From positions 94,359,805-94,423,804 of the forward strand of contig NC_088295.1 of the NCBI RefSeq assembly GCF_032854445.1: a stretch of DNA of 64,000 bases. The letters run 5' to 3'. The stretch comes from Liolophura sinensis. Taxonomy: Eukaryota; Mollusca; Polyplacophora; Chitonida; Chitonidae. Under the pieces are notes generated by a model, which worked only from the letters and a program-made list of their open reading frames with translations, was not told where the DNA came from and ran no database searches. Positions 385 through 59,895 of the stretch are shown here, piece by piece (positions within the stretch are counted from its first letter, which is position 1; each line of letters opens with the position of its first letter). Position numbers and translations under genes: made by a program.

Positions 385-456
385 CTGAGGTCTGCTTTGA
401 ACCCTCACCTGAGGTCTGTTTTGAACCTTCACCTGAGGTCTGCTTTGAATCCTCAC
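385..456 (-). repeat. 24-bp donor-copying array (3 units)
   Basis: Each unit repeats the end of module 41 and a GTGAGG/GTGAAG donor. In the exon frame it reads on as repeated G-E-G-S-K-Q-T-S octapeptides without a stop. Confidence 0.85.
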
Positions 457-561
457 CTGAGCAATCCGGAATCTTGAAACCTGCACTGCACTGACACACT
501 CCTGGACGTAAACATGACCCTCCGTTAGGGCACTGCCCATGGGGCAGGTCAAAACAGGAGG
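457..561 (-). CDS. EGF module 41 (type B), last exon visible
   Basis: 105-bp exon, acceptor TATTGTAG, donor GTGAGG. SCFDLPHGQCPNGGSC, then C-Q-C, ending IPDCSG. Followed by three 24-bp in-frame donor repeats. The gene continues beyond the left edge. Confidence 0.92.
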
Positions 562-3500
562 CTACAATAAAAGACTTTGGCGATTAAACGCAATATGAAA
601 GCATTTTTCATTAACTTAGCTTTTTCCCCACATTATCCCACCACAGCGGTTAAATGTATAAAAATATAAATACGCTACTAAATATTCCCCAGACACAATT
701 TCACCCATGTACATGGACACCTATAACACTGGAATTCCCCACATACAATTTCACCCATGTACACGGACACCTATAACACTGGATTTCCCCACATACAATT
801 TCACCCATGTACACGGACACCTATAACACTGGATTTCCCCACATACAATTTCACCCATGTACACGGACACCTATAACACCGGATTTCCCCACATACAATT
901 TTACCCATGTACACGGACATCTATAACACTGGATTTCCCCACATACAATTTCACCCATGTACACGGACACCTATAACACCGGATTTCCCCACATACAATT
1001 TCACCCATGTACACGGACACCTATAACACTGGATTTCCCCACATACAATTTCACCCATGTACACGGACACCTATAACCTATTATCAGATTCGTACTTACT
1101 TATATGATGCATCTTTAAAGAAGAATGAGAAAATCTTCATATTTTGGTCTAACTATAGGGCAAGTAAGTTAACAATAGTTAGCCAAATACAACACAAGTT
1201 ATGTGATAACATTTTGGTCTAACTACAAGAAGACCATAGTTTGGTCTAATTACAAGACAAGTCATGTGACCAAGTTTTGCTCTAACTATAAGACAAGGTA
1301 TGTGACCACATGTTGGTCCAACTACGAGACGAGTTGTGTGACCATAGTTTGGTCTAACTACAAGACAAGCCAGGTGACCAAGCTTTGCTCTAACTATAAG
1401 ACAAGGTATGTGACCACGTTTTGCTCTGATTACGAGACAAATATCTGACCATATTTTGGCAGAGACAGCTGATGACAAACTTACGTTTACACTGGAAATC
1501 CATGGCATCCCACATGTAACCTTGCCGGCAGTCACAGAAGTAAGAGCCATCCGTGTTGTGGCATCCCAGTTCACAGATATCGGGTTTTGTGCACTCGTTA
1601 TAATCTGAATGGAAAAAATCGAAACAGATTTGATACCGGCATACCAAAAGATTGTGGCATCAAGTGCTTCCAGTCCTTTTTTTTTCGCATAACTTAGCAT
1701 CTTTCAATTCATGCAGGTTTTCATCAACATAAAAATTTTGCAAGAGCGGTCAGACTTACCATCACATATGGGTGGAACATAACCATGTTTGCATTGGCAA
1801 GACTCAGGTGAAATACAAGTCCCATCATTCGGGCAGTTCCCAGGGGGCAACATGAAACAAAGGGCTGAAAATGTGATAGGCAGGTGCGCTATAAAACACA
1901 TCAATCATCATACAATGTCCTGTCAATGTCTTTTCAACATGAAGAGATATATGTTTAAAAAAGTTCAGCTTATAAAATCCATCAAATGTAGTTTTCAGAA
2001 AGAGGACAGATCCCATGAGCTGTTTAACTTCTGAACCTAAGTTGAAACATTGTGTTGAACGTACGTAGTTCATCATCTTTGCCTGGCAACGTGCCGTGTC
2101 CAGAGGCTGTTTTACAGTAGTACGCTCCGGCAATGTTCACACATTCCACTTTACAGTTCCCATTGTCCACCTCACATTCATCGATGTCTGCAAAACAGCA
2201 ACAACAGCTCCTGTAACAACACAACAACAGCAGCTGCCGTAACAACACAACACCAGCATCTGTAACAACGCAGCAACAACAGCCCATGCAACAACACAAA
2301 AACAACAGCTCCTGTAACAATGCAACAACAACAGCTCCTGCACGAACATCACAACAACAGCTTCGGTAACAACGCAAGTATAACAGATCCTTGCAACAAC
2401 ACAACCACAACAGCTCCTGTAACAACACAACAACAGCAGTTCCTGTAACAGCAAAACAAGAACAGCTTCTGCACAAACGTCACAAAAATAACAGTTCCTG
2501 TACCAACAAAAGAACAGCAGCTCCTTAACAACACTGCAGTTCCCATTGTTCCCACTGTCTGAAGCACACACTAGGTCAGGTACTCTTCCTTCCATTATGA
2601 CATCACACATGACGCACTCACCTGTACACTAAGGTGTGGCGTAACCTTGCTGACAGGGGCACACATCAAGTGAGGTACATTTCCTTCCATTATGACATCA
2701 CACATGACACACTCACCTGTACACTCAGGTGAGGCGTAACCTTGCTGACAGGAGCACACATCAGGCGAGGTACATTTTCCTCCATTATGACATCACACAT
2801 GACACACTCACCTGTACACTCAGGTGTGGCGTAACCTTGCTGACAGGGGCACACATCAGCTGAGGTACACTTCCTTCCATTATGACATCACACATGACAC
2901 ACTCACCTGTACACTAAGGTGTGGCGTAACCTTGCTGACAGGGGCACACTTCAGCTGAGGTACATTTCCTTCCATTATGACATCACACATGACACACTCA
3001 CCTGTACACTCAGGTGTGGCGTAACCTTGCTGACAGGAGCACACATCAGGCGAGGTACATTTTCCTCCATTATGACATGACACACTCACCTGTACACTCA
3101 GATGTGGCGTAACCTTGCTGACAGGGGCACACATTAGCTGAGGTACACTTCCTTCCATTATGACATCACACATGACACACTCACCTGTACACTAAGGTGT
3201 GGCGTAACCTTGCTGACAGGGGCACACATCAGCTGAGGTACATTTTCTTCCATTATGACATCACATATGACACACTCACCTGTACCCTCAGGTGTGGCGT
3301 AACCGTGATGACAGGAGCATACATTAGCTGAGGTACATTTCCTTCCATTATGACATCACACATGACACACTCACCTGTACACTCAGGTGTGGCGTAACCC
3401 TGCTGACAGGAGCACACATCAGGCGAGGTACACTTCCCTCCATTATGACAGCACACATGACACACTCACCTGTACACTCAGGTGTAGCGTAACCTTGCTG

Positions 3501-6500
3501 ACAGGAGCACACATTAGCTGAGGTACATTTCCTTCCATTATGACATCACACATGACACACTCACCTGTATACTCAGGTGTAGCGTAACCTTGCTGACAGG
3601 AGCACACATTAGCTGAGGTACACTTCCTTCCATTATGACATCACACATGACACACTCACCTGTACACTCAGGTGTGGCGTAACCCTGCTGACAGGGGCAC
3701 ACATCAGCTGAGGTACACTTCCTTCCATTATGACATCACACATGACACACTCACCTGTACACTCAGGTGTAGCGTAACCTTGCTGACAGGAGCACACATT
3801 AGCTGAAGTACACTTCCTTCCATTATGACATCACACATGACACACTCACCTGTACACTCAGGTGTGGCGTAACCCTGCTGACAGGGGCACACATCAGCTG
3901 AGGTACACTTCCTTCCATTATGACATCACACATGACACACTCACCTGTACACTCGGGTGTGGCGTAACCTTGCTGACAGGAGCACACATCAGCTGAGGTA
4001 CACTTCCTTCCATTATGACATCACACATGACACACTCACCTGTACACTCAGGTGTGGCGTAACCTTGCTGACAGGAGCACACATCAGCTGAGGTACACTT
4101 CCTTCCATTATGACATCACACATGACACACTCACCTGTACACTCAGGTGTGGCGTAACCTTGCTGACAGGAGCACACATCAAGTGAGGTACATTTCCTCC
4201 CATTATGACATCACACATGACACACTCACCCGTACACTCAGGTGTGGCGTAACCTTGCTGACAGGAGCACACATTAGCTGAGGTACACTTCCCTCCTTTA
4301 TGACATCACACATGAAACACTCACCTGTACACTCAGGTGTGGCGTAACCTTGCTGACAGGGGCACACATCAGCTGAGGTACATTTCCTTCCATTATGACA
4401 TCACACATGACACACTCACCTGTACACTCAGGTGTGGCGTAACCTTGCTGACAGGAGCACACATCAGCTGAGGTACACTTCCTTCCATTATGACATCACA
4501 CATGACACACTCACCTGTACACTCAGGTGTGGCGTAACCCTGCTGACAGGAGCACACATTAGGTGATGTACACTTCCCTCCATTATGACATTGTCCAGGA
4601 GGCAGACCAAAGCATAAAGCTGAGGAAGGAAAAAAACATGCGTGAGAAGATCTAATATTAATACTATAAATGTGTTTGAGAAGAATTTTAAGCGAGTTTT
4701 ACTAAAAATATTTAGGATAACCTACATTGGCCAGCCAATCAGTGACTTACGTTTGCATTCCTTGTCATCTGCATGCCAGCGATGCCCAGGTTGACAGTCA
4801 CAGTGGTACGACCCCAGCTCATTATAACATGTCTGATCACCACAGCCCCCGTTATCTACAGCACACTCGTCAATATCTGCAATACAAACCCTCATTATCT
4901 GTAGCACACTCATTCAATTTTATACACAAACCACCATTCTCTACAGCACATTCATTAATATCTGCAACACAAACCACCACTGTCTACAGCACACTCATCA
5001 ATATCTGGAACACATACCACCGCTGTCTACAGCACACTCGTCAACAACCGCAACACAAACCACCACTGTGTACAGCACATTCATCAATATCTGGAACACA
5101 TCCCACCACTGTGTACAGCACACTCGTCAATATCCGCAACACACACCACCACTGTCAACAGCACACTTATCAATATCTGCAACACAATCCACCACTGTCT
5201 ACAGCACACTCGTAAATATCCGCAACACACACCACCACCGTCTACAGCACACTCATCAATATCTGCAACACAATCCACCACTGTGTATAGCACATTCATC
5301 AATATCTGGAACACATACAACCATTGTCTACAGCACACTCATCAATATCTGGAACACATACCACCACTGTGTACAGCACACTCGTCAATATCTGCAACAC
5401 ACACCACCACTGTCTACAGCACACTCATCAATATCCGCAACACACACTACCACTGTCTACAGCACACTCATCAATATCTGGAACACATACCACCACTGTC
5501 TACAGCACACTCATCAATATCTGGAACACATACCACCGCTGTCTACAGCACACTCGTCAACAACCGCAACACAAACCACCACTGTGTACAGCACATTCAT
5601 CAATATCTGGAACACATCCCACCACTGTGTACAGCACACTCGTCAATATCCGCAACACACACCACCACTGTCAACAGCACACTTATCAATATCTGCAACA
5701 CAATCCACCACTGTGTACAGCACACTCGTCAATATCCGCAACACACACCACCACTGTCAACAGCACACTTATCAATATCTGCAACACAATCCACCACTGT
5801 CTACAGCACACTCGTAAATATCCGCAACACACACCACCACCGTCTACAGCACACTCATCAATATCTGCAACACAATCCACCACTGTGTATAGCACATTCA
5901 TCAATATCTGGAACACATACAACCATTGTCTACAGCACACTCATCAATATCTGGAACACATACCACCACTGTGTACAGCACACTCGTCAATATCTGCAAC
6001 ACACACCACCACTGTCTACAGCACACTCATCAATATCCGCAACACACACTACCACTGTCTACAGCACACTCATCAATATCTGGAACACATACCACCACTG
6101 TCTACAGCACACTCGTCAATATCTGGAACACAATCCACCACTGTCTACAGCACACTCATCAATATCTGCAACACATTCCATCACTGTCTACAGCACACTC
6201 ATCAATATCTGCAACACACACCACCACTGTCTACAGCTCACTCCTGAAAGTCTGCAACACACACCACCACTGTGTACAGCACATTCATCAATATCTGCAA
6301 CACAATCCACCACTGTCTACAGCACACTCATCAATATCTGGAACACATACCACCACTGTCTACAGCACACTCGTCAATATCCGCAACACACACCACCATT
6401 GTCTACAGCACACTCGTCAATGTCTGCAACACACACCACCACTGTCTACAGCACACTCATCAATATCTGGAACACATACCACCACTGTCTACAGCACACT

Positions 6501-9500
6501 CGTCAATATCCGCAACACACACCACCACTGTCTACAGCACACTCGTCAATATCCGCAACACACACCACCACTGTCTACAGCACACTCGTCAATATCCGCA
6601 ACACACACCACCACTGTCTACAGCACACTCGTCAATATCCGCAACACACACCACCACTGTCTACAGCACACTCGTCAATATCCGCAACACACACCACCAC
6701 TGTCTACAGCACACTCATCAATATCTGCAACACAAATCACCATTGTCTACAGCACACTCATCAATATCTGAAGCGCAAACCATCATTGTCTACAGCACAC
6801 TCGTCAATATCTGAAACACCCCCCGCCCATTGTTTACAGCACACTAATCAATATCTGAAACACAAACCACCATTGTCTACAACATACATCTATTGTTCCA
6901 AACACACTTGACAATATTTGCAACAAAAACCCCAATGTCTACAGCACACTCGTCAATATCTCAGCCGCCATAGCCTACAGCTTTTCACGCACCTTATCTT
7001 AGGGATTGCCTCACAGAGATTGACCGCCGGCATCCTACACACAGCACTACTGACACACTGGCTTAACCGAGAATGGGTGGGGGGGGAGCTGAAATCCAGG
7101 CTTACCTGAGCAGGGGGGCAGCTGAAATCCAGGCTTACCTGAGCAGGGGGGCAGCTGAAATCCGGGCTTACCTGAGCAGGGAGGCAGCTGAAATCCGGGC
7201 TTACCTGAGCAGGCGGGCAGCTAAAATCCGGGTTTACCTGAGCAGGGGGGCAGCTGAAATCCGGGCTTACCTGAGCAGGAGAGCCGCTGACACACTGGCT
7301 TACCTGAGCAGGAGAGCCGCTGACACACTGGCTTACCTGAGCAGGAGGGCAGCTGAAATCCGGGCTTACATTTACAGATCCATGGCCTCATACAAGTCCC
7401 GTTGTTGGCACACTTCCCAGGATCTTCACCGTAACACACAGCTACAATTATTAAGGGACAGCGATCAGTCTTGCCTTATTCAGACAGATTTGACCGTGGT
7501 CATATGCTAATCCTCTACTGTACACCTCTCATTACACCTATCAATACCTCCTTGATATAGTAACACTTGAATGGAAAAAATATGATGTCGAAGAGCTTGG
7601 CTTTGGCAATTCATTTTTTATTACATGAAGTATTTCTTTACACTAAATTGTACTGTTTTTATCTTATTATTCTGATAAATTCCATGTAGGAATAACTGGT
7701 TGAATGATACAACTAGGAGAGCTTTAGCTACTACCAGTACACATGAGGAGGATTCTCAGGGAAGACAGGCAAAGGCAACCTATCCTCCATGCTGTATCGT
7801 ACAACTAGGAGAGCTTTAGCTACTACCAGTACACATGAGGAGGGTTCGCAGGGAAGACAGGCAAAGGCAACCTATCCTCCATGCTGTATCGTACAACTAG
7901 GAGAGCTTTAGCTACTACCAGTACACAAGAGGAGGATTCTCAGGAAAGACAGGCAAAGGCAACCTATCCTCCATGCTGTATCGTACAACTAGGAGAGCTT
8001 TAGCTACTACCAGTACACAAGAGGAGGATTCTCAGGGAAGACAGGCAAAGGCAACTTATCCTCCATGCTGTATCGTACAACTAGGAGAGCTTTAGCTACT
8101 ACCAGTTCACAAGAGGAGGATTCTCCGGGAAGACAGGCAAAGGCAACCTATCCTCCATGCTGTATCGTACAACTAGGAAAGCTTTAGCTACTACCAGTAC
8201 ACATGAGGCTCACCCACACAGGCATGGTGGACATCATCCCAGACGTAATCCGCACCACATTCACAGGCGTATGAGCCCATGGTGTTCGTACAGGTCAGCT
8301 GACATCCGCCATTAGCCTCCGTGCACTCGTCCACGTCTGCTTCAGTCAACAATGTTTGTAGGATGTTCTTTACATGTGTAGTATAACGTGTATACATAAA
8401 GGGTATTTACGTATTGAAACACTCCAGGGGGCCGCCATGGCCGATCTGTAAACCTGTTAGTGCAGCACGATGAGTTCAAGTCTAAATGTAGCTTACGCTG
8501 GTTTTTCCCCGACCGTATGTGAAAAAGATTGCTAGCAACTTGCGGATGACCATAGGTGTCTCCTGGCTCGCATCCACCATAATGCAGGCACCATCACTTA
8601 GGTGAAATATTCTTGAGCACGGTGTAAATCTCCAATCAAAACAAACATTCAAACGTTAAACAAGTTTTTTTGACCGCTCATTCTAATACATAGATGTACA
8701 CCTAACATGGAGCTTAGAGCTCATCTCACAATCCACACAGTTTGTATACAGCTTCTAGTGATCACTGTTTCCTTTCACTGTTTACAAATATAGATCTTAA
8801 TGGTTGCAGCTTTCCTATCTCACCTGAACAGTCAGTGGTGTCATATCCTACCAGACAGGAACAGTTGCCGGGGGCAACACAGCTACCTCCATTCTGACAA
8901 ACACCTGGCAGTTGGCCGTAACATAAAGCTGGAGCACAGAAAACAAGTCACAGGAACGTTAAAATCAACAACCGAACGTGATCTGGCTGGAACAAAGAAT
9001 AGAAGTCACAGCAGGAATGTTAAAACCAACAACGGGACATGATCTGGCTGTAACACAGAGCTGGAACACAGAAAACAAATTACAATAGGAATGTTAAAAC
9101 CAATAACCAAACACCACTTGGTTGGAACACAGAGGTGGAACATAGAAAACAAGTCACAACAGGAATGTTAGGCCCAACAACCGAACACCAGTTGGCTGGA
9201 ACAAAGAAAACAAATCACAACAGGAATGTTAAAAACAAACAACCGAACCCCAGTTGGCTGGAACACAGAGCTGGAACATAGAAAACAAGTTACAATAGGA
9301 ATGTTGAAACCAATAACCGAACACCAGTTGGCTGGAACACAGAAAACAAATCACAACAGGAATGTTAAAACCAAACAACCGAACCCCAGTTGGTTGGAAC
9401 ACAGAGCTGGAACACAGAAAACAAATCACAATAGGAATGTTATAACCAACAACCGAACACCAGTTGGCTGGAACACAGAAAACAAGTCACAATAGTAACG

Positions 9501-12500
9501 TTGAAACCAACAACCGAACATGATCTGGCTGGAACATAGAGCTGGAACAGGGGAAATAAGTCATAACAACAATGTTAAAACCAACAACCGAGCACCAGTT
9601 GGCTGGAGCACAGAAAACAAGTCATAACAGGAATGCTAAAACCAAAAACAGAGCACCAGGTGGCTGAAACACAGAGCTTGAACACAGAAAACAAATGATA
9701 ACATGAATGCTAAAGTCAACAATCGAACACCAGTTGGCTGAAACACAGAGCTCGAACACAGAAAACAAATGATAACATCAATGCTAAAATCAACAATCGA
9801 ACACCAGTTGGCTGGAACACAGAGCTCGAACACAGAAAACAAATGATAACATCAATGCTAAAATCAACAATGGAACACCAGTTGGCTGGAACACAGAGCA
9901 AAAACACCGAGCTATAAGGAGATTCAGCTAGAAAAGTTAAATACTGGTAACATATAAACACACAGCCTTGTACAGCACATTCATGTAGAGATCCTGTGGT
10001 GGGAAAGTGGCGTAAGAATTAACGTTGGGTACCGGTATTTCAGGTAGAAGCTGTTGTGATGTTGTGATATGTTTGACTTACGTTTGTCCTCGCTATCCCC
10101 AGCATTGCGTCCGTACCCTAGCCTGGGACTGGAGCAGTAGTATGACCCTACTGTGTTCACACATCTGCTACCTGCACAGTCCACCTGCATCTCTGTACAC
10201 TCGTCAATTTCTGTGTGAGCAGGCAAAGAATAGGGAGCAACCGTCACAGGAGCATGATGAATGAATATTTGAACATTTTATACAAACATTCTGGGTACCA
10301 TAAACTCACATACATGGCCACTTTATATCATAACAAGCTGCACTTATAAGTTACCAGTCAAAATCATGTGAAGCCACAGTCCACAAAACAAATATCTTAT
10401 AATAGCCGCCTAGGGCTTCCACACAGAAAAAGATTAAAATAATTCTCACCTGAACAATCTGGTTCTTTGTAGCCATCAGGACAGGAACAGATGTCTGATT
10501 CTGTACAAGTGCCCTTGTTATTACAGGTACCGGGGGGGAGGCTATAACAGACCGCTGTAACAGCAAAACTACAGGTAAAGGGAGACGCAAGAGATCAGGA
10601 ACAGGCATCTGTGTCTATACAGGTGCCCTTGTTGTTATAGGTGCCAGAGGAAAGATAATATAGCTCACAGCTGTAACTGCAAAACTGCTGGTAAGGGGAG
10701 ACACAAGAGATCAGGAACAGGTGTCTGTGTCTGTATAGGTGCCCTTGTTTTTACACATGCTAGAGGAAAGGTCATACAGCTCTCAGCTCTAACACAAAAC
10801 TACAGGTAAGAGGAGACACAAGAGAGCAGGAACAGATGTCTGTGTCTGTATAGGTGCCCTTGTTAATACAGGTAAGAGGAGTCACAGGAGAGCAGGAACA
10901 GATGCACGTGTCTGTATAGGTTCCCTTGTTGTTACAGATGCCAGAGAGAAGATCTTACAGGTAAAAAGAGACACAAGAGAGCAGGAAGAGACGTCTGTGT
11001 CTGTATAGATGCCCTTGTTTGTTACCGATGCCAGAGAGAAGATCTTACAGCTCAGAGATCTTACAGGTAAAGAGAGACACAAGAGAGCAGGAAGAGACGT
11101 CTGTGTCTGTACAGATGCCCTTGTTGTTACAGGTGCCACAGGGAAGGTCACATAGCTCACAGCCGTAACAGCAAAACCACTGTTAAGGGGACATAGGTAA
11201 AGACGTACAGCACAGAGAGTAAAACTAGAGAGGCGATGACAGTGTAAAAGTTGGCAAATGGTCACACGTAACCGGAAAAACATGGCCTCTTGTGAGTTTA
11301 CTTCAGTCATGGTTTTATTTTACGCCTCCTAGCACCATGGCTTAAGCAGAATTGGGTAAAAAAATGCAGTGATGTTAACTGCAATGTATTAGACGTCACT
11401 TGTCTATTAATACTCGACAACAGTGTGATGGCTGGGAAATATGGAGACACAAGAGAGCAGGAACAGACGCCTGTGTCTGTACTGAAGCCAGAGAGTTCAT
11501 ACAGCTCACAGCTGTAACAGCAAAACCACATGTAAGCGGAGGCTCAAGAGAGCAGGAACAAACGACTGTGTCTGTACATGTGCCATTGTTGTTACAGGTT
11601 TTGCATTTTATTAGACTTTTTACTAAGCACCTACCTTGTAGGTAAAGATTAAACCATTCACGCAACGTAGTCATTAAGCAAGATGAAAACATATTACGCA
11701 CAGGCTAACCTTGTTCTGTATTAGACTAACCACACTCTTGGGTAACTCCAGCCCATGCTGAAATGACCAGCACTTTTCTCTTCCAATGTATGGGTATGCC
11801 TTACCAGTCATCCACAAAACGTCATTGCCAGGGCATGAATAAGGTGTCCACAGCTTACATGTAGATCTGAGTGACACAAATGAGGCGTCCACAGCTTAGG
11901 TGTGAGTGACATAAAGGAGGCGTCCACGGCTTAGGTCTGAGTGACATGAATGAGGTATCCACAGCTTAGGTCTGAGTTACACAAATGAGGCGTCGACAGC
12001 TTAGATCTCATTAACATGAATGAGGCGTCCACAGCTTAGGTCGGAGTGACACAAATGAGGCGTCCACAGCTTTGGTCTGAGTGACATGAATGAGACGTCG
12101 ACAGCTTAAGTGTGAGTGACATGAATGAGGCGTCCACAACTTAGGTGTGAGTGACATAAAGGAGGCGTCCACAGCTTAGGTCTGAGTGACATAAATGAGG
12201 TATCCACAGCTTAGGTTTGAGTTACAAAAATGAGGTATCCACAGCTTAGGTCTGATTAACATGAATGAGGCGTCCACAGCTTAGGTCTAAGTGACATAAA
12301 TGAGGTATCCACAGCTTAGGTCTGAGTTACAAGAATGAGGCGTCCACAGCTTAGGTCTGAGTGACATGAATGAGGTGTCCACAGCTTAGGTCTGATGGAC
12401 ATAAATGAGGTATCCACAGCTTAGGTTTGAGTTACACAAATGAGGCGTCCACAGCTTAGGTCTGAGTGACATGAATGAGGCGTCCACAGCTTAGATCTAA

Positions 12501-15500: not shown

Positions 15501-18500
15501 TGAGTGACTTATGGCTGGAAAGGTCGCTCACCCACTAGATCAAAACTTATCCACGATATCACAAATTACAAGAACACCTGAACAAACACGTGAGGAATTG
15601 ATACATATCTTATCACCGTGTTATTTTGATGATGACTTGCTCTACGGCTGGCATTAATGCTTACGTAAGCAGAGTTGTTTGGCTGCGTCCCATCCGTAGC
15701 CCTCGGCACAGACACACACGTAGCTGCCCGGAGTGTTCTGGCACATGTCCTCCCCACAGCCACCATTGTTCGGCCCCTCACACTCGTTGATGTCTGCAGT
15801 GCAACACGCAAAATCCTGGTTACCCACTTTTGGTTATATGCTGATATCTTTACAAACTAATCTGAACAGGTACTCAAAATTTTAATAAGCTGGCTCTCAC
15901 CATATATGCCTATATACACTATTAATAAGAAAAGAGTGGGGGTTCCGAGTCATGTTGATATTTCTAGGAAATAGGATTGTATAAATGTGACTTAATAAGA
16001 ATAATGATTGTTCACAATGTGTAATTATGAGTGTCAAAACACACCACTGCAATGTAAGTGATACTGTGTTACCATGACACCAGTACAATGAAGCTGCTAC
16101 TGTGTTACCGTGACACCTGTACGGTGCAGGTGTTACCGTGTTACCATGGCACCATGGCCTCTTTCACAAAATCACTTTGGCCAAAAATCCCAACAAATGT
16201 GTCTGAAGCTTGATGGTCAAATGTTGGCTGAAACACTACCGCCGGACCAGTGGTCAAAATGTTATCGATTTGATGCATTTGTTCCAGAGTTTAATTTGGA
16301 TTATAATTTTAGAGTCAGCCAAAGGCTGAAATCACTTACGGAACAGGCCCAGCATTCCCACAATTTCACAGAAACATTCTGACATACATGTTGGCCTTAT
16401 ACAAGTACTTTCAGATCGTGCATAAGATTAAGTGCTGCACTTCATACACAGGTGTGGCTGTTTGCCTCACCGTGGCAAGGGAGATCACTCACCTGTACAG
16501 AGTGGCAGTCGGAAACCTGGAGGACACACACAGGTCCCTGGGTGAATACAGCTTCCTCCGTTATCACACGCACCAGGCATGTTGTCCCCACAAAGGGCTG
16601 TGGTCAGAAAAAACAGATGCAGCTGGACATGTGAAAATGCGGTTTTTATTCAACTGGAACAACATTCACACATCAATATTAATAACAGCCTTTTTACTAG
16701 GTCCTGCTTATAAAAGTAGACTGTGTGAGTATCTTACTAAGGCACTATATTATTACATTCATATGTTTGATGGGCTTGTTAATTTAGTGTTTACAGACGC
16801 CCATTTCTAGCGTTTGCAGACGCCTATTTCTAGTGTTTACAGGTGCCTATTTCTAGTGTTTACAGATGTCTATTCTAGTGTTTACAGACGTCTATTTCTA
16901 GTGTTTACAGACCCCTATTTCTAGTGTTTACAGACGCCTATTTCTGGTGTTTACAGACGCCCATTTCTAGCGTTTGCAGACGCCTATTTCTAGTGTTTAC
17001 AGGTGCCTATTTCTAGTGTTTACAGATGTCTATTCTAGTGTTTACAGACGTCTATTTCTAGTGTTTACAGATGCCTATTTCTCATGTTTACAGACGCCTA
17101 TTTCTAGTGTTTACAGACGCCTATTTATAGTGTTTAAATATGCCTGTTTCTTATGTTTACAGACTCCTATTTCTGGTGTTTACAGATGCCTATTTCTAGT
17201 GTTTACAGACGCCTATTTCTAGTGTTTAAATATGCCTATTTCTAGTGTTTACAGACGCCTATTTCTAGGTATTAACTCACTAGTAGCCTTAGAAATATTG
17301 TAATCCACTCACATGACGCATTCATCACCTATTAATCTTCAACCATTTCAACCACTAGAGCACAATGGAATTTATGCACATAATTCTTATGAAAATGATG
17401 TCAAAAAGGAGTTATTTGTTTCAAATACAAGCATCATACAACTGTGTAAATTATTTCTCTACACCCCATAGATCTCTTAGCATGTTTCAAAATATTGGTT
17501 GCAGAGGCAGTTGAAAAGGTCATAGGAGTAGGGTGTATCCAGGTATGTGGAAGCTGTGATCCTAACATTTTACTTCACAGGGCCCACACTTACTGCAGTG
17601 ACAAATTTGAAATTTGATCAACAATTCATGACAATTTACACTTTCAAATTCGTTGTGGAAAACAACATCACATTTCTTTCTGCATAAATGGTGAATTAAT
17701 CTCACCCATGCTCATTTCTTCAGTTATAAAAGAACAGAGAGTTTAAGAATGCACGTACGTTTGGAGATCTCATCGTTGGGTCCCTTGCCATACCCCGGCA
17801 TTCCTTGACAGTAATAACTACCGGGCTTGTTCACACACGACCCATCACAACGCACCGATTCACACTCATCTACATCTGCAGTAAGAACAGTTCAGAGGAG
17901 CAGCTATAACAAGGGGGATTTTGAGAAGAATCTTAACGTAATCAGCTTTGTCCATATACATGTAGGTATCCAGTAATACAGGTAAAAGACTGATTCTGTG
18001 CTAACCTTCGTGTCATTCACTCCAGAATCAAGATGTTAACATTAAAGATAAATGTAGCTGGACCTACATTTGGCTAAATGGCTAAATCCACAGATAATCT
18101 ACATCCTAATTTGCAAAAAGTTCCCTTAAATCTAATCTACATACAGGCGCATGTACAACACGCGCATGTAAAATAGCTGCATGTACAACAGGTGCATGTA
18201 CAACAGGTGCATGTACAACAGGAGCATGTACAACAGGTGCATGTACAACAGGTAAATGTACAACAGGCACTTGTACAACAGCTGCATGTACAACAGGTGC
18301 ATGTACAAAAGGCGCATGTACAACAGGAGCATGTACAACAGGTGCATGTACAACAGGTAAATGTACAACAGGCACTTGTACAACAGGCGCATGCGCAACA
18401 GGTACGTTTACAACAGGTGCATGTACAACAGATGCATGTACAACAGATGCATGTACAACAGCTGCATGTATAGCAGGCGCATGTACAACAGGGGCATGCA

Positions 18501-42500: not shown

Positions 42501-45500
42501 TGTGAATGAGTGTGCTTGTGAGTCAATATCTGCGTATGGTTGTGTGAATGAGTGTGCATGTGAGTGTGTATCTGCGTTTGGTTGTGTGAATGAGTGTGCG
42601 TGTGAGTGTGTATCTGCGTTTGGTTGTGTGAATGAGTGTGCGTGTGAGTGTGTATCTGTGTTTGGTTGTGTTAATGAGTGTGCATGTGAGTGTGTATCTG
42701 CGTATGGTTGTGTGAATCAGTGTGCATGTGAGTGTGTATCTGCGCATGGTTGTGTGAATGTGTTTGTGTGTGTGTGTTTGTGCGTGTGTGGGGCATACCT
42801 TCACACTGGGGTAGTGAGTATCCCTCCAGACAGGAGCACTCCCCAGGGGCCAAACACATCCCTCCATTCAGGCAGTCCCCGGGGGTGGCTCCAAAACACA
42901 CAGCTGAAACAACAAATATACATTGTATGGAGAAAAATCTATAGTATACGACTCTTGTGACTATATGGTTACAGCTCTTGTGACTATATAGTTACAGCTC
43001 TTGTGACTATATGGTTACAGCTCATGTGACTCCATGATTACAGCTCATGTGACTATGCAGTTACAGCTCATGTGACTATATGGTTACAGATCAAGTGTGT
43101 GGCTACAGATCATGGGAATATATGGTCACTGCTCATGTGACGGTGGTTACAGCTCAAGTGAATAAATAGTTACAGCTCATACGACTTATATGGTTGCAGA
43201 TCAAGTGATTGTTGTTACAGATCATATGACCATACGGTTACAACGCATAATGTCATTTACTTGGAACTTGTGAAGAATAGATGTACATGTTTACATCACA
43301 GTTTACATCTGTATTGCCATTGGATTACACCATTGGAGGGCATTCTACGTTTACGGCTCATGTTATCATTTGAGTACATCTGATGTTATCTTACTTTTAC
43401 AGCTCATATGATCATAACTGCGGTTTTCTTTCCTTTGTATGATTACAAATGAAGGTTATCTTATTTTTACAGCTCATATGTTTATAGCTGAGGCTACATG
43501 TATCTTACGTTTACAGCTCATATGGTTACAGTACCGTGAGTTCAAGTCCAGCTAATGCTGGCTTCCTCTCCTGCCAGCAACCTATGGATGGTTGTGGGTT
43601 CCCCCGGGATCTGGCAGGTTTCCTCCAACCATAATGCTGGCCGCCGTCGTGTAAGTGAAATATTCTTGAAAATGGCATAAAACGCAAATAAAATAAATAC
43701 ATAGACATATGGTTACAGCTGAGATTATCTTACGTTTACAGCTCATGGTGCGCTTGTCCCAGCCGAAGCCATCCTCACAGGAACACGCATAGCTCCCATA
43801 CAGGTTCATACACTCCAGTTCACATAGGCTGCTGTTCAATTCACACTCGTTCAGGTCTGCTCCAACATAGCCATACAAACAATTAAATTTAGACCACAGT
43901 CCGATAATAACAGATGTCAAAAGTGGCACTGATGAAAGCAGAAAAGAAAACACAAGCCCTAGAAGAGCAGTGTGTTTCTGCCAGGTTGGAACTTCTCCAC
44001 TCTAGGCTTCATGGTTTTCCGGTGATCCAGTCACAACACTTAAGTCATAAAGTACATGTGATCCAGTAGAGCAATCTGAACACTGAAGTCATAAAGTAAT
44101 CTGATCCAGTAGAGCAATCATAACACTAAAGTCATAAAGCACATGTGATCCAGTAGAGCAATCACAACACTAAAGTCATAAAGTACATGTGATCCAGAAG
44201 AGCAATCACAACACTAAAGTCATAAAGTACATGTGATCCAGAAGAGCAATCTCAACACTAAAGTCATAAAGCACATGTGATCCAGTCGAGCAATGACAAC
44301 ACAAAAGTCATAAAGCACATGTGATCCAGTCGAGCAATCACAACACAAAAGTCATAAAGCACATGTGATCCAGTCGAGCAATCACAACACAAAAGTCATA
44401 AAGTACATGTGATCCAGAAGAGCAATCACAACACAAAAGTCATAAAGTACATGTGATCCAGTCGAGCAATCACAACACTAAAGTCATAAACCAAATGTGA
44501 TCTAGAAGAGCAATCTCAACACTAAAGTCATAAAGTACATGTGATTCAGTCGAGCAATCACAACACTAAAGTCATAAAGTACATGTGATCCAGTCGAACA
44601 ATCACAACACTAAAGTCATAAAGTACATGTGATCCAGTCGAGCAATCACAACACTAAAGTCATAAAGTACATGTGATCCAGTAGAGCAATCACAACACAA
44701 AAGTCATAAAGTACATGTGATCCAGTAGAGCAATCACAACACTAAAGTCATAAAGTACATGTGATCCAGAAGAGCAATCTCAACACTAAAGTCATAAAGC
44801 ACATGTGATCCAGTCGAGCAATCACAACACTAAAGTCATAAAGTACATGTGAGCAATCTGAACACCGAAGTCATAAAGTACATGTGATCCAGTCGAGCAA
44901 TCACAACACTAAAGTCATAAAGCACATGTGATCCAGTCGAGCAATGACAACACTAAAGTCATAAAGTACATGTGAGCAATCTGAACACCGAAGTCATAAA
45001 GTGCATGTGATCCAGTAGAGCAATCACAACACAAAAGTCATAAAGCACATGTGATCCAGTCGAGCAATGACAACACTAAAGTCATAAAGCACATGTGATC
45101 CAGAAGAGCAATCACAACACTAAAGTCATAAAACACATGTGATCCAGTCGAGCAATCACAACACTAAAGTCATAAAGTACATGTGATCCAGAAGAGCAAT
45201 GACAACACTAAAGTCATAAAGCATATGTGATCCAGTCGAGCAATGAAAACAATAAAGCCATAAAGTACATGTGAGCAATCTGAACACCGAAGTCATAAAG
45301 TACATGTGATCCAGTAGAGCAATCACAACACTAAAGTCATAAAGTACATGTGATCCAGAAGAGCAATCACAACACTAAAGTCATAAAGCATATGTGAGCC
45401 AGTCGAGCAATGACAACACTAAAGTCATAAAGTACATGTGATCCAGAAGAGCAATAACAACACTAAAGTCATAAAGCACATGTGATCCAGTAGAGCAATC

Positions 45501-48500
45501 ACAACACTAAACTCATAAAGTAAATGTAATGATGAAAATATATGTATGTATAATGACCACAACTAATGCCATGAAATCAATTCTCAATAAATTCTTTACA
45601 CATGTGGCTTTACTTTATAATACCAAGGGAAATACCTCCCTGGCTCCACTTTTAATTTGTCAGCAGGATACGTGTTATGCCATACAGTACATGTAACATT
45701 AAGGGTTACATTTAGCTAGAACAATCCATGTAGCTAGAACAGTCCATGTAACTGGAACAGTCCATGTAACTAGAACAGTCCATGTAACTGGAACAGTCCA
45801 TGTAACTGGAACAGTCCATGTAACTGGAACAGTCCATGTAACTGGAACAGTCCATGTAACTAGAACAGTCCATGTAACTGGAACAGTTCATGTAACTGGA
45901 ACAGTCCATGTAACTAGAACAGTCCATGTAACTAGAACAGTCCATGTAACTAGAACAGTCCATGTAGCTAGAACAGTCCATGTAACTAGAACAGTCCATG
46001 TAACTAGAACAGTCCATGTAACTAGAACAGTCCATGTAACTGGAACAGTCCATGTAACTGGAACAGTCCATGTAACTGGAACAGTCCATGTAACTAGAAC
46101 AGTCCATGTAACTAGAACAGTCCATGTAACTAGAACAGTCCATGTAACTGGAACAGTCCATGTAACTGGAACAGTCCATGTAACTGGAACAGTCCATGTA
46201 ACTAGAACAGTCCATGTAACTAGAACAGTCCATTTAACTGGAACAGTCCATGTAACTAGAACAGTCCATGTAACTAGAAGCGTCCATGTAGCTAGAACAG
46301 TCCATGTAACTGGAACAGTCTATGTAACTAGAACAGTCCATGTAACTAGAACAGTCCATGTAACTGGAACAGTCCATGTAACTAGAACAGTCCATGTAAC
46401 TAGAACAGTCCATGTAACTGGAACAGTCCATGTAACTAGAACAGTCCATGTAACTGGAACAGTCCATGTAACTAGAACAGTCCATGTAACTGGAACAGTC
46501 CATGTAACTAGAACAATCCATGTAGCTAGAACAGTCCATGTAACTGGAACAGTCCATGTAACTAGAACAGTCCATGTAGCTAGAGCAGTCAATGTAGCTA
46601 GAACAGTCCATGTAGCTAGAACAGTCCATGTAGCTAAAGCAGTCCATGCAGCCAGAATAGCCCATGTAGCTACTGCAGTCCTTGTAGCTAGAGCATTCCA
46701 TGTAGCCAGAAAAGTCCATGTAACCAGAACAGTCCATGTAGCTAGAACCGTCCATGTCATGAACAGAGCAGTCCAGGGGCCTCCTTGGCTCAGTCGGTGA
46801 GCGCGCTAGCGCAGCGTAATGACCAAGGAGTCTCTCACCAATGCGGTCGTTGTGCGGCTCTACCCGGTTTCCTCCCATCATAATGCAGGCCGCCGTCGTA
46901 TAAGTGAAATATCCTTGAGTACGGCGTAAAGCACTAATCAAATAAATAAATAAATAAATACAGCAGTCCATGTAGCTAGAGCAGTCCATGCAGCTAGAAC
47001 AGTCCATGTATCTAGAACCGCTCATGTCATGAACAGTCCATGTAGCTAGAACAGTCCATGTGGCTAGAACAGTCCATGTAGCTGGAACAGTCCATATAGC
47101 TAGAGCAGTCCATGTAGCTGGAACAGTCCATGTAGCTTGAACCGTCCATGTCATGAACAGTCCATGTATCTGGAACAGTCCATGTAGCTAGAACCGTCCA
47201 TGTCATGAACAATAACAATCAAACAAGCTTACAATTACCATCACTACACCAAGGCTGCATCTAATTCTTTTTCCTCTTTAAACTGCCCATTTTTCATATG
47301 TTCTAATTTCCGTAACAATTCTTCAGGACTACAAGTGCACCATCAGGGCAGGTGTTGATGAAAGGCTTCGCAATACCCTAACCTTCACAGGTGTTGTCCT
47401 CCACAATGAGGGTAAAGCCATCAAAACAGTCACAGAAAAATGATCCCACTTCATTGACACAGCTGAATTCGCAGCCCCCGTTATTGCTGGCACATTCGTC
47501 TGTGTCTATAGATCATAAAATAGAAAAAACATAAAACAGATGTAAGTAATCACTGTGTCAAGACAGCTGGACTATCAACAAGGTCCTTACCCTTCATTAA
47601 TATCAAGGTTGTGAAGGTGTATGTAATCACTGTGTAAAGACAGCTGGACTATCACCAAGGTCCTTACCCTTCATTAATATCAAGGTTGTGAAGGTGTATG
47701 TAATCACTGTCAACACAACTGAATTATCACCAAGGTCCTTACCCTTCATTAATATCAAGGTTGTAAAAGTCTAAGTAATCACTGTGTCAAGACAGCTGGA
47801 CTATCAACAAGGTCCTTACCCTTCATTAATATCATGGTTGTAAAAGTCTAAGTAATCACTGTGTCAAGACAGCTGGACTATCAACAAGGTCCTTACCCTT
47901 CATTAATATCAAGGTTGTAAAAGTCTAAGTAATCACTGTGTCAACACAGCTGGGCGATCAACAAGGTCCTTACCCTTCATTAATATCAAGGTTGTAAAAG
48001 TCTAAGTAATCACTGTGTCAACACAGCTGGGCGATCAACAAGGTTCGTAACTTTCATTAATATCAAGGGAATGAAGTTATTCAGAACCTGTACAGGTAAT
48101 AATAGCATGTCCACTGCTAAGGTTGTCCCTCTCCTCACCATACGTGTGAGATGTACGTGTACAGGTAATAATAACATGTACACTGCTAAGGTTGTCCGTC
48201 TCCTCACCATACGTGTGACATGTACCTGTGCAGGTAATAATAACATGTACACTGCTAAGGTTGTCCCTCTCCTCACCATACATGTACGATGTACGTGTAC
48301 AGGTAATAATAGCATGTCCACTGCTAAGGTTGTCCCTCTCCTCACCATACGCTAACAGACACTCACCTGAACAATTGTGCCCACTATATCCTGGCTGACA
48401 CTCACAGACACCTGGACTGACACAGGTGCCTTGATTAGGACAGAACCCAGGCTCTTCAGCAAAACACACAGCTGAAATGTTCCAGATATACAGAGTAAGT

Positions 48501-51500
48501 ATGTCATACATGTAAGTAACAACCCCCATTCAGTTCAATCAGGCCACACGTAACATTTTACACGAAGTTTCTCTGCTACACAGTACTCTTTAAACTCACA
48601 TGAGTAATTTTATACATTAGGTGTTTATACGCTGATTTGCAAATGGAGAATTTTTTACTAAAATATTGCTGTATGAAATATCATGTTGTTGTATGAGTAT
48701 TAAGGTAAAAGTAAGCAACAACATGTCGGTCTAATAATCAGGAAGGTGGAAGTTACAGTTGTAGAGGGCATACAAGTACATGACCGAATTCATCGGAGTT
48801 ACAGTTGGGGAGGGCATACATGTACATGACCGAATTCATGGGAGTTACAGTTGTATAGGGCATACAAGTACATGACCGAATGTATGGGAGTTACAGTTGT
48901 AGAGGGCATACATGTACATGACCGAATTCATGGGAGTTAAAGTTGTAGAGGGCATACGTGTACACGGCCGAATTCATGGGAGTTACAGTTGGAGAGGGCA
49001 TACATGTACATGACCGAATTCATGGGAGTTACAGTTGGAGAGGGCATACGTGTACATGTCCGAATTCATCGGAATTACAGTTGTAGAGGGCATACATGTA
49101 CATGACCGAATTCATCGGGGTTACAGTTGTAGAGGGCATACATGTACATGGCCGAATTCATCGGGGTTACAGTTGTAAAGGGCATACATGTACATGACCG
49201 AATTCATCGAGGTTACAGTTGTAGAGGGCATACATGTACATGGCCGAATTCATCGGGGTTACAGTTGTAGAGGGCATACATGTACATGACCGAATTCATG
49301 GGAGTTACAGTTGGGGAGGGCATACATGTACATGACCTAATTCATGGGAGTTACAGTTGTAGAGGGCATACATGTACATGACCGAATTCATGGGAGTTAA
49401 AGTTGTAGAGGGCATACGTGTACACGGCCGAATTCATGGGAGTTACAGTTGGAGAGGGCATACATGTACATGACCGAATTCATGGGAGTTACAGTTGGAG
49501 AGGGCATACGTGTACATGTCCGAATTCATCGGGATTACAGTTGTAGAGGGTATACATGTACATGACCGAATTCATCGGGGTTACAGTTGTAGAGGGCATA
49601 CATGTACATGGCCGAATTCATCGGGGTTACAGTTGTAGAGGGCATACATGTACATGACCGAATTCATCGGGGTTACAGTTGTAGAGGGCATACATGTACA
49701 TGACCGAATTCATGGGAGTTACAGTTGTAGAGGGCATACAAGTACATGGCCGAATTCATCGGGGTTACAGTTGTAGAGGGCATACATGTACATGACCGAA
49801 TTCATGAGAGTTACAGTTAGAGAGGGCATACATGTACATGGCCGAATTCATCGGGGTCACAGTTGTAGAGGGCATACATGCACATGACCGAATTCATGGG
49901 AGTTACAGTTGGAGAGGGCATACGTGTACATGGCCGAATTCATCGGGGTTACAGCTGTAGAGGGCATACATGTACATGACTGAATTCATGGGAGTTATAG
50001 TTGCAGAAGGCATACATGTACATGGCCGAATTCATCAGGGTTACAGTTGTAGAGGACATACATGTACATGATCGAATTCATCGGGGTTACAGTTGTAGAG
50101 GGCATACATGTACATGGCCGAATTCATCGGGGTTACAGTTGTAGAGGGCATACAAGTACATGACCGAATTCATGGGGGTTACAGTTGTAGAGGGCATACA
50201 CGTACATGACCGAATTAATGCAATAGCTTCTGAAAACGTTATACAAACGCTGTTAAACGTACGTTTACACATTTGTTCTGATTGGCTCCACCCCAATCCA
50301 TCTGCACAGGTACATTTGAATGATCCTGGAATATTCTCGCATTGAAACTCGCAATCGTGCTGATTAGTGTTGCATTCGTCGATATCTGTCAACATGATAA
50401 AAAAACCTGTCACAATCATGTTGTTAAGTATTGCTCTCAGAGATTTTGTCAATTTACATAATTCAGCATACAATTACCACTATGTCAGAGGTGTCAGTGA
50501 CGTCAATTGTGGCAAATGGTGCATTGGTCATCAAAAGGACCAGTGAAAAGTCAAATCTTAAAATTTAAGGCAAAAGTTCAATAAAAAGTGTTTACAAACT
50601 CTCACCCTCGCAGCTGATCTGATCAGCCATCAGTTGGTAGCCATCGTTACACAGGCAGTTGAAGGTTCCTGGGACATTTTCACATATCTCTGTACAGTTT
50701 CCATTTGCTGGCTCACCCACACATTCATCCACATCTGTGGGTACAGATAACAAGGCAGGTGATACGTGTATATGTGGCATCAATACGTAATCTATATTGT
50801 TATGACACACATGTGCACGGTCATGCTCTATGTTGTCAAGACAGGCATGTACAGCGTCATGGTCTATATTTTCATGACAGACATATGCATCGTCGTGATC
50901 TATATTGTCACGACAGACATGTGCATCGTCGTGATCTATATTGTCACGAAAAACATGTGCATGGTCACGATCTATATTGTCATGACACAGATGTGCATGG
51001 TCGTGATCAGTATTGTCACGACAGACATGTACATGATCATGATATATATTGTCATGAGACACATGTGTACGGTCATGGTCTATGCTGTCATGACAGGCAT
51101 GTACATGATCATTATTGTCATGACAGACATGTGCATGATCATGATCCACAATGTCATGACAGACATGTGCATGATCACGATCCACAATGTCATGACAGAC
51201 ATGTTCATGATCATGATCCACACTGTTGTGACGGACATGTGCATGGTCATTTTCCATATTGTCATGACAGACATGTGCATGGTCATGATCTATATTGTCG
51301 TTGCAAGCTATCATAAGTACTTATCATCACACAAATTATCGTAGAATACACTGCCATAACATTATGACAAATTATCATCCCATACACGGTTGTGGCATAC
51401 TGTCATGGTAATCTGTGATATCATGAAATAAATTACCATATAAACATCTCATCACCTAACATCGTGGCACTTAACATACATACAGTGAGCGGTAACGATT

Positions 51501-54500
51501 GTGAAGTCCCCTCATCGTCACACGAGACCTCGTCTGCAGCCATCGTCATGGAGGATAACATACATGCAATGATCGGTAACGACTATGAAGGCTCCTCACC
51601 ATCACACAAGACCTCGTCTGCGGCCAGCATCATGACGGTTAACATACATGCAGTGAGCGGTAACGACTATGAAGGCTCCTCACCGTCACACGAAACCTCA
51701 TCTGCAGCCAGCATCATGACGGTTAACATACATGCAGTGAGCGGTAACGACTGTGAAGGCTATTCACCGTCGCACGGGACCTCGTCTGCAGCCAGCATCA
51801 TGACGGTTAACATACATGCAGTGAGCGGTAACGACTGTGAAGGCTATTCACCGTCGCACGAGACCTCGTCTGCAGCCAGCATCATGACGGTTAACATACA
51901 TCCAGTGATCGGTAACGGTTGTAAATGGTACTCACCGTCACAAGAGACCTCGTCTGCAGCCAGCATCATGACGGTTAACATACATGCAGTGACCAGTAAC
52001 GACTATGAAGGCTCCTCACCGTCACTCGAAACCTCGTCTGCAGCCATCGTCATGACAGTTAACATACATGCAGTGATCGGTAACGGTTGTAAATGGTACT
52101 CACCGTCACACGAGACCTCGTCTGCAGCCAGCACATAGCCTATTTTACAGTCACACCTGTATGATCCCAGCTCATTAATACACAGCTGACGACAGGCGTG
52201 AGATTTTGTGTCCAGGCATTCGTCCTTGTCTAGAAAAATCGAAAGGAAAAAATATACTTTTCAGATATTGTCTGCTGTTTAGTTGTTTGTATGTCGGTGT
52301 TAATATCATGTACCGGTAGACTTTACACACCACGTGTGAGCATTTCTCAGACACTAAACAAGGGCAGTTGAACATTAGGCACAAATGCTCATCTGTCCAC
52401 TCATTTATCATCATCTCCTCAGATCCAAACTAAATGCAACTTAACAACCATCTTCAGGTAGAGGCGTAGCTTTCACTTGAATATTTGTCAAATTGCCTTT
52501 ATCTTTCAGTGCATAAAATCTGAGGTGCTTTCGACGAAATAATAACTCTTGTCTACACTGATTAAAAAACTCACCTGTTGTGATTATACATGTCAACAAC
52601 AATGTACCGGTATCTTTAACACCTTAATCCGTCTTGCCTTTCGATGACTGGTTTACTTACCTTCACACATGGGCAGCTCATACCCCTCAGAGCAGCTGCA
52701 CTCGTCAGGTGCAGAGCATTTATGAGAATTGAGACAGGTTCCAGGAGTCATATGAAAGCACACAGCTGTAACATTCCAGACAGAAAGTGTAACGTACAGC
52801 TGCAAGATACCATGCAGATTGTGTTACACATAGCTATAACATATCACACAGAGCGTGTTACACACAGCCGTAACATATCACACAGAGTGTGTTACACACA
52901 GCCGTAACATATCACACAGAGTGTGTTACACACAGCCGTAACATACCACAGATATGTTATAATATACAAGACAGACAGTATTACACATGGCTGATCTATA
53001 CCCGGCAGATAATATAACACATGGGTGCTATATAAAAGACAGAATGTGTAACACATGGCTGTTATATACAAGACAGATAGTACTGCTCAAGGCTGTTATA
53101 TACTAGACACATAGTATTACACATGGCTGTTACATAGCAGACAGATGGTATTACACAAAACTGTAATATACCAGATATATACTATTACACATGGCTGTTA
53201 TATAACAGACAGATAATACTACCCATGGCTGTTATATAACAGACCGATAATACTACACATGGCTGTTATACAGCAGACAGATAGTATTACACAAGGCTGA
53301 CAAGGCTGTGGTATATCAGATATATACTATTACACATGGCTGTTATATTACAGACAGATAATACTACACATGTCTCTTATATAACAGACCGATAATACTA
53401 CACATGGCTGTTATACAGCAGACAGATAGTATTACACAAGGCTGACAAGGCTGTGGTATATCAGATATATACTATTACACATGGCTGTTATATAACAGAC
53501 AGATAATACTACACATAGCTGTTATATAACAGACAGATAATACTACACATGGCCGTTATATAGCAGACAGATAGTATTACACAAGGCTGTGGTATACAAG
53601 ATATATACTATTACACATGGCTGTTATATAACAGACAGATAATACTACCCATGGCTGTTATATAACAGACCGATAATACTACACATGGCTGTTATATAGC
53701 AGACAGATAGTATTACACCAGGCTGACAAGGCTGTGGTATACCAGATATATACTATTACACATGGCTGTTATATTACAGACAGATAATACTACACATGTC
53801 TCTTATATAACAGACCGATAATACTACACATGGCTGTTATACAGCAGACAGATAGTATTACACAAGGCTGACAAGGCTGTGGTATATCAGATATATACTA
53901 TTACACATGGCTGTTATATAACAGACAGATAATACTACACATAGCTGTTATATAACAGACAGATAATACTACACATGGCCGTTATATAGCAGACAGATAG
54001 TATTACACAAGGCTGTGGTATACAAGATATATACTATTACACATGGCTGTTATATAACAGACAGATAATACTACCCATGGCTGTTATATAACAGACCGAT
54101 AATACTACACATGGCTGTTATATAGCAGACAGATAGTATTACACCAGGCTGACAAGGCTGTGGTATACCAGATATATACCATTACACATGGCTGTTATAT
54201 TACACACAGATAATACTACACATGTCCCTTATATAACAGACAGATAATACTACACATGGCTGTTATACAGCAGACAGATAGTATTACACAAGGCTGACAA
54301 GGCTGTGGTATATCAGATATATACTATTACACATGGCTGTTATATAACAGACAGATAATACTACACATGTCTCTTATATAACAGACCGATAATACTACAC
54401 ATGGCTGTTATACAGCAGACAGATAGTATTACACAAGGCTGACAAGGCTGTGGTATATCAGATATATACTATTACACATGGCTGTTATATAACAGACAGA

Positions 54501-59895: not shown

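Follow-up and report, generated by a model that had tools for sequence, protein, structure and literature searches.

The window analysed here, 64,000 nucleotides of the chiton Liolophura sinensis (C1:94,359,805-94,423,804, about 2 Mb short of the scaffold end), holds on its minus strand a long gene of EGF modules in which many introns carry minisatellites built from the end of the preceding exon together with its GT donor. These are probably ordinary minisatellites that arose by tandem duplication across exon-intron borders and are tolerated since the first donor wins, possibly with a mutation bias specific to the borders. The gene is not unique in carrying arrays of this kind, which also occur in unrelated myosin and kinesin genes, and the kind itself is already known from amphioxus. 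What stands out is the density within one gene, the spread over several gene families and a measured bias toward donors.

Arrays across 5' splice sites

The modules are mostly encoded by alternating exons for a 105-bp EGF-like and an approximately 123-bp calcium-binding EGF domain, all in phase 1-1:

457 to 57964, minus strand: 41 module exons of the EGF gene

With an EMI-like exon upstream of the modules, the exon count for the window is 42. The 40 full module exons of both kinds are flanked by GT donors and AG acceptors, and module 13 is a truncated EGF-like exon of 54 bp (41168-41221) that keeps the frame. Linking the 41 module exons at their exon-adjacent donors yields a single stop-free frame of 4,653 nt, or 1,551 codons. 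The open frame fits use of the exon-adjacent donor, and we infer that this donor is the one used at the arrayed exons.

An earlier note on this DNA had described arrays over the 5' splice sites of 13 exons, each composed of the end of its own exon and the donor. Tandem Repeats Finder (TRF) found an array at all 13 places, in every case reaching across the GT donor of the exon beside it. The composition was borne out both by TRF and by a TRF-free scan, in which a 24-bp junction query (12 exon and 12 intron bases) was searched in the next intron at a threshold of at least 16 of 24 matches. In that scan, donor-junction copies were present for 14 of the 42 exons, about a third, and shuffled junction queries gave 0 to 0.2 matches per intron for the exons listed. 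The copies total 199, of which 159 keep GT and 130 keep GTRAG, such that the earlier estimate of well over 200 decoy donors was somewhat high. The most-copied junction, that of exon 33670-33774, has 61 copies. The donor-crossing arrays and associated features are as follows, with copy numbers from the junction scan:

385 to 461, minus strand: 24-bp array over the donor of the module 41 exon (457-561); 2 donor copies
2563 to 4591, minus strand: 95-bp array over the donor of the module 37 exon (4515-4619), with 77 exon bp inside; 20 donor copies, all GTRAG
7080 to 7369, minus strand: 33-bp array over the donor of the module 35 exon (7337-7441); 8 donor copies, 7 with GT
19104 to 19154, minus strand: 20-bp array of 2.2 copies over the donor of the module 27 exon (19139-19243), the smallest case; 1 junction copy
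23188 to 24448, minus strand: 118-bp array over the donor of the module 21 exon (24361-24465), with 88 exon bp; 9 donor copies
26507 to 29317, minus strand: 91-bp array over the donor of the module 19 exon (29240-29344), with 78 exon bp; 30 donor copies, all with GT
33364 to 33687, minus strand: 39-bp array over the donor of the module 17 exon (33670-33774); 6 donor copies
30107 to 32561, minus strand: 41-bp array further down the intron after module 17; 54 of the 61 junction copies of exon 33670-33774, at 30125-32524
34763 to 36385, minus strand: 35-bp array over the donor of the module 16 exon (36357-36482); 36 copies, 24 with GT
37730 to 37854, minus strand: 48-bp array over the donor of the module 15 exon (37844-37948); 2 copies
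39297 to 40328, minus strand: 93-bp array over the donor of the module 14 exon (40244-40366), with 85 exon bp; 8 copies
41026 to 41211, minus strand: 61-bp array over the donor of module 13, the 54-bp exon (41168-41221); 2 copies
51471 to 52133, minus strand: 84-bp array over the donor of the module 6 exon (52104-52229), with 30 exon bp; 7 copies, 6 with GT
58715 to 59031, minus strand: 37-bp array over the donor (59003/59002) of the EMI-like exon; 7 copies, 6 GTRAG
43235 to 43710, minus strand: 6 irregularly spaced donor-junction copies of exon 43734-43856, 4 with GT, from the junction scan; a weak 14th case with no regular array

The unit lengths given earlier agree with these, except at module 27, where the unit is 20 bp rather than 22 bp, and at module 17, where it is 39 bp at the donor and 41 bp further on.

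Coding content of the copies

For 8 of the 13 arrays, variation among the copies was broken down by codon position. In their exonic parts, 57 of 151, 52 of 146 and 67 of 149 columns are variable at codon positions 1, 2 and 3, respectively, and the bias of positions 1 and 2 against position 3 is not significant (P=0.10). The exonic part is no more conserved than the intronic part (176 of 446 against 40 of 124 variable columns, P=0.17). The copies thus behave as non-coding, as expected if they are removed with the intron.

These results bear on the suggestion that the arrays are used, with inner donors lengthening the linkers between EGF modules and repeat number tuning the protein. Such use is quite unlikely. 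The unit is a multiple of three in 6 of the 13 arrays, several in-frame copies are stop-free and many inner donors are strong by matrix score, all of which would suit it, but splicing at an inner donor would change the reading frame for the other 7 of the 13 units, and the 8 arrays lack a significant overall codon-position bias. The 95-bp array, taken alone, does differ by position (8 of 26, 2 of 25 and 14 of 26 variable columns at positions 1, 2 and 3), a pattern that could stem from changes in the real exon after duplication.

Border arrays in other genes

The same structures were sought in myosin and kinesin genes, with exon borders taken from profile hits. The myosin sample comprises the 64 of 81 hits that lie inside fetched pieces, and the kinesin sample comprises 80 of 132 hits, mostly single-exon, hand-picked from the top of the table before arrays were inspected. 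Reading of stacked copies identified 5 donor-crossing and 2 acceptor-crossing arrays in the 64 myosin exons. In the 80 kinesin exons, there are 4 donor and 1 acceptor arrays, along with 2 near-donor and 1 near-acceptor arrays, for a combined 9 donor and 3 acceptor arrays in 144 exons. One array (L053) was counted as a donor array on reading, where the automatic tally had it as near-donor. By eye, most of the array units can be recognised as closing with motor-domain coding sequence and then a donor, for instance GTAAG or GTGAG. Three candidates were rejected: in L022 the array begins in the intron, in L048 the hit runs over a stop and is not an exon end, and in L074 the array is wholly intronic.

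A paralogue of the same architecture lies at C1:69.29-69.32 Mb, 27 Mb from the scaffold end. Its 42 exons sit in sequence that is 3% array, and one of its 4 arrays of period at least 20 (80 bp x 5.9 copies) crosses a border, a donor. Verified border arrays are present at 11 loci besides the window, on eight scaffolds.

That the repeats are inflated or misplaced by assembly is very improbable. The region is repeat-dense, and the assembly includes a contig on which the mitochondrial genome is repeated several times in tandem, either of which might point to such an artefact. Yet the copies differ among themselves and border arrays are verified at the 11 other loci. In addition, the assembly was built from HiFi reads with a mean of 8.3 kb, according to the available part of its description (PMC11068029), which exceeds the longest donor array of 2.8 kb (3.6 kb if 30107-33687 is one array).

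Excess of arrays at donors

Because 64% of the window is array, a plain count of overlaps between arrays and donors is uninformative, and it was dropped as a test. Instead, for the 48 arrays of the window, the expected crossings were computed from a uniform distribution of seeds along the intron length that is free of arrays. Donors are crossed by 13 of the 48 arrays, where 5.1 are expected (P=0.0006), and acceptors are crossed by 4, where 5.1 are expected. The donor excess is sensitive to the intron length assumed: with 250 bp, 7.7 are expected (P=0.03), and with 600 bp, 3.6 (P=0.00005).

Window, paralogue and motor genes were then pooled as 234 exons: 42 from the window, 6 from the adjoining piece L004, 42 from the paralogue, 64 from myosin and 80 from kinesin genes. 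In this set, donor-crossing outnumbers acceptor-crossing by 23 to 8 (P=0.011), with donor arrays roughly threefold above uniform placement and acceptor arrays at expectation. As a local control, arrays were counted whose edge falls in the intron no more than one period from the border; there are 10 at donors and 12 at acceptors (Fisher P=0.046). These near-border counts are rough, given that the five near-acceptor arrays of the window include two far ends of donor arrays, one L004 array was tallied as both near-donor and near-acceptor, and two overlapping rows of L023 were tallied twice. At donors, arrays that start inside the exon outnumber those that start within one period inside the intron by 23 to 10 (P=0.035).

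Outside the window, 10 donor arrays were found where uniform placement, summed over three classes of distance to the scaffold end, predicts 3.4 (P=0.003), and 4 acceptor arrays where 3.4 are expected. If exon interiors are treated as closed to arrays, the donor excess has P=0.009 to 0.03. By class, there are 3 donor arrays against 1.5 expected at 0-3 Mb (P=0.2), 3 against 1.0 at 3-10 Mb (P=0.085), and 4, among 16 arrays, against 0.9 beyond 10 Mb (P=0.012).

Pure chance overlap in a region this rich in tandem repeat is an unlikely account. Unconstrained placement would put about two thirds of borders in arrays, which is above what is seen. Arrays otherwise seldom enter exons, however, as array bases make up 572 of the 4,599 within module exons, and the donors exceed the expectation from intron-limited seeding, an excess that recurs outside the window.

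A mutational mechanism specific to 5' splice sites is possible though doubtful; candidates are nascent-RNA hybrids, or transcription pausing linked to U1 that would break the DNA there. The donor excess both in and outside the window would suit it, and the excess extends to array-poor chromosome interiors, as in the class beyond 10 Mb. Against it, the edge of the array inside the exon is scattered from 5 to 88 bp before the donor with no fixed register, and the donor arrays are richer in GC than the remaining arrays (0.51 against 0.41), so that base composition at exon ends could be the cause. The numbers are also small, with two of the three distance classes non-significant.

Acceptor arrays and repeat saturation

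Copying of acceptors and the saturation of the window, of which 63.7% is tandem repeat, were both missing from the earlier note. In the window, 4 TRF arrays cross a 3' splice site, and a junction scan found acceptor-junction copies for 6 of the 42 exons, 69 copies in total, with a single copy for one of the six exons. The arrays over or beside acceptors are:

4855 to 6881, minus strand: 43-bp array over the acceptor of exon 4751-4876, with 22 exon bp inside; 47 acceptor-junction copies
8986 to 9899, minus strand: 74-bp array beside the acceptor of exon 8824-8928, with acceptor-like copies; 9 acceptor-junction copies at 9060-9824
10482 to 11146, minus strand: 116-bp array over the acceptor of exon 10450-10554, with 73 exon bp; 3 acceptor copies in the intron, one (10670) within the bounds
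41216 to 41508, minus strand: 78-bp array over the acceptor of the module 13 exon; 5 acceptor copies at 41298-41629
52759 to 52950, minus strand: 34-bp array over the acceptor of exon 52661-52765; 4 acceptor copies at 52867-53160

The intron at 4877-7336 has the 33-bp donor array at one end and the 43-bp acceptor array at the other. At the high-coordinate end, a 76-bp array of 54 copies (59875-64000) reaches the end of the window, and the adjoining 10 kb (L005) is 81% array. An 18-bp tandem array is split at 46758-46963 by a SINE-like element, roughly 206 bp long and tailed by (AAAT)n, and pieces related to this element are present at many other loci of the genome. It resembles known mollusc SINEs.

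The share of sequence in arrays falls away from scaffold ends. In 98 myosin and kinesin pieces, it is 43.5% within 1 Mb of the end, 21.6% at 1-3 Mb, 15.7% at 3-6 Mb, 19.4% at 6-10 Mb, 7.5% at 10-20 Mb and 3.0% beyond 20 Mb. Array density and distance are correlated with rho of -0.80 for the 18 myosin pieces and -0.50 for the 80 kinesin pieces, although pieces of one gene are non-independent samples. Because of this steep drop, the crowding of arrays in the window gene is largely regional. The view that this one gene is special does not stand, given the same arrays in myosin and kinesin genes and a crowding that fits a position near a scaffold end. Distance to the end is not the whole explanation, because arrays make up 15-29% of the myosin pieces located 1 to 3 Mb from an end, against 64% of the window, 59% of the adjoining L004 and 81% of L005, all at 2 Mb.

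Proposed origin and tolerance of the arrays

The genome generates intronic minisatellites readily, chiefly near scaffold ends, and a gene with more than 40 introns sits there. An array would start with a tandem duplication across an exon-intron junction, followed by growth and homogenisation, presumably by slippage or unequal exchange. If the duplication crosses a donor, the original exon and its donor would stay in place, upstream and transcribed first. Exon definition would then pair the acceptor with the first donor, such that all copies would be removed with the intron. If it crosses an acceptor, the copies would lie upstream of the true acceptor, where they could be reached first, and would more often be harmful. 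This polarity, possibly with a raised rate of duplication at exon ends, could produce the donor bias.

Several points weigh against the reading of the arrays as ordinary, tolerated minisatellites. By a matrix built from the window's donors, 83 of the 120 GT-keeping copies in the TRF arrays score at least as high as the true donor; because inner copies match it in score, the first donor must win by position, not strength. Outside the window, the donor excess is significant on its own in only one of the three distance classes (beyond 10 Mb), the comparison of starts in the exon with starts in the first intron period gives 10 against 6 (P=0.45, not significant), and the donor to acceptor ratio of 10:4 is likewise not significant (P=0.18). 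Exons and pieces are non-independent samples, some kinesin pieces overlap, and the myosin and kinesin borders come from profile hits. In addition, tolerance alone predicts at most the neutral rate, whereas donors lie about threefold above it and acceptors at it. Purifying selection on acceptors is therefore insufficient as an explanation. Splicing polarity would let donor arrays outnumber acceptor arrays, yet it leaves the donor excess over neutral unexplained. GC-rich exon ends or a splice-linked mutation bias could supply the remainder, and a border-specific mechanism and selection may both contribute.

The EGF-module gene and its genome

The genome assembly comprises 632 contigs and 609 Mb, with scaffold C1 of 96,433,062 bases. 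It was first published as Liolophura japonica (PMC11068029, as far as its available text goes), and the species name was corrected to L. sinensis (PMC12441733). Contig C99, of 108,685 bases, contains several mitochondrial genome copies in a row at a spacing of about 15.5 kb, either a concatemer assembly or a nuclear array, and its mitochondrial sequence includes a long repeat that translates as (MY)n. Judged by eye from the translations, the order of the mitochondrial genes is consistent with a mollusc.

Pfam matched EGF_CA and other EGF families on the first 559 aa of the joined frame. The EMI label of the upstream exon was assigned by eye; Pfam gave no match on the 29-aa end of this exon, and an EMI search of the genome gave one match, located elsewhere. 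The gene seems to continue beyond the low-coordinate end of the window, as 6 further module exons lie on the same strand in the adjoining 10 kb (L004). Six calcium-binding EGF exons have in common a variant 3' half (YYC, then a GYG- or GHG-type stretch) without the usual last cysteine:

2065-2187, 10082-10210, 17759-17875, 19835-19960, 26303-26425 and 29542-29664: calcium-binding EGF exons with the variant 3' half

The same EGF modules are also matched at at least 4 loci (C10:10.87-11.11 Mb, C10:0.09-0.13 Mb, C1:31.59-31.86 Mb and C2:16.30-16.31 Mb), and EGF-module genes are probably a large family in this genome.

Relation to known systems

A minisatellite of the human interferon-induced gene 6-16 (IFI6, G1P3), attributed to Turri et al. 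1995, reportedly carries multiple splice donor sites. It is a single case, unlike the chiton arrays.

The closest match is in amphioxus, and the earlier note's remark that it knew of no locus like this has to be given up as far as the kind of structure is concerned. According to the available portions of two papers, so-called mirages are minisatellite-like tandem copies of exon-intron boundaries in Adh3, troponin C, the globins BflGb6 and BflGb9, and PGBD5 (PMC3087553, PMC3902484). They occur at 5' and 3' borders, have copies with splice signals and have units of 10-72 and about 150-160 bp, and Adh3 data and globin RT-PCR suggested undisturbed splicing (PMC3087553, PMC3902484). As far as these descriptions reach, the chiton arrays are alike in spanning exon-intron boundaries, at donors as well as acceptors (13 and 4 arrays, respectively, in 42 exons), in carrying splice signals in the copies (GT in 159 of 199) and in affecting several genes (the window gene, myosin and kinesin). 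The occurrence in Mollusca, as opposed to cephalochordates, is a taxonomic and not a structural difference. What sets the chiton apart from the mirages so described is that 13 to 14 of the 42 exons of one gene are affected, with up to 61 copies of one junction. Beyond them, the donor bias and the gradient toward scaffold ends have been measured, in a single chiton assembly.

Human variable number tandem repeats (VNTRs) are enriched subtelomerically (PMC7608644), and the chiton repeats likewise concentrate toward scaffold ends; the available text of that study, unlike the present case, does not concern splice sites. Intron gain by tandem duplication of AG/GT (Rogers; Gao and Lynch 2009, both as cited in the available part of PMC3087553) is likewise a tandem duplication carrying splice signals within genes. 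The chiton copies differ in sitting in existing introns; a new intron was neither seen nor searched for. The accessible parts of papers on an earthworm metallothionein, a C. elegans minisatellite and abalone TSSK1 describe intronic repeats and not border-spanning ones. Among the matches listed from the general and the mollusc and chiton literature, by titles and beginnings of abstracts in open-licence PMC papers, no such arrays were recognised outside amphioxus.

Border-spanning minisatellites, described before in a few genes of amphioxus, are thereby documented in another phylum and across several gene families within a single genome, and the donor bias, the acceptor rate and the gradient to scaffold ends are quantified. 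The arrays provide a natural test of how the spliceosome chooses one donor among dozens of near-equal ones, and they call for caution in gene prediction in genomes that contain them. A process at 5' splice sites that seeds tandem duplications throughout chiton genomes, at about three times background and not at acceptors, is proposed only tentatively, with the amphioxus mirages as an independent case. If so, exon ends would be mutational hot spots for the birth of minisatellites, a possibility that public assemblies now make testable.
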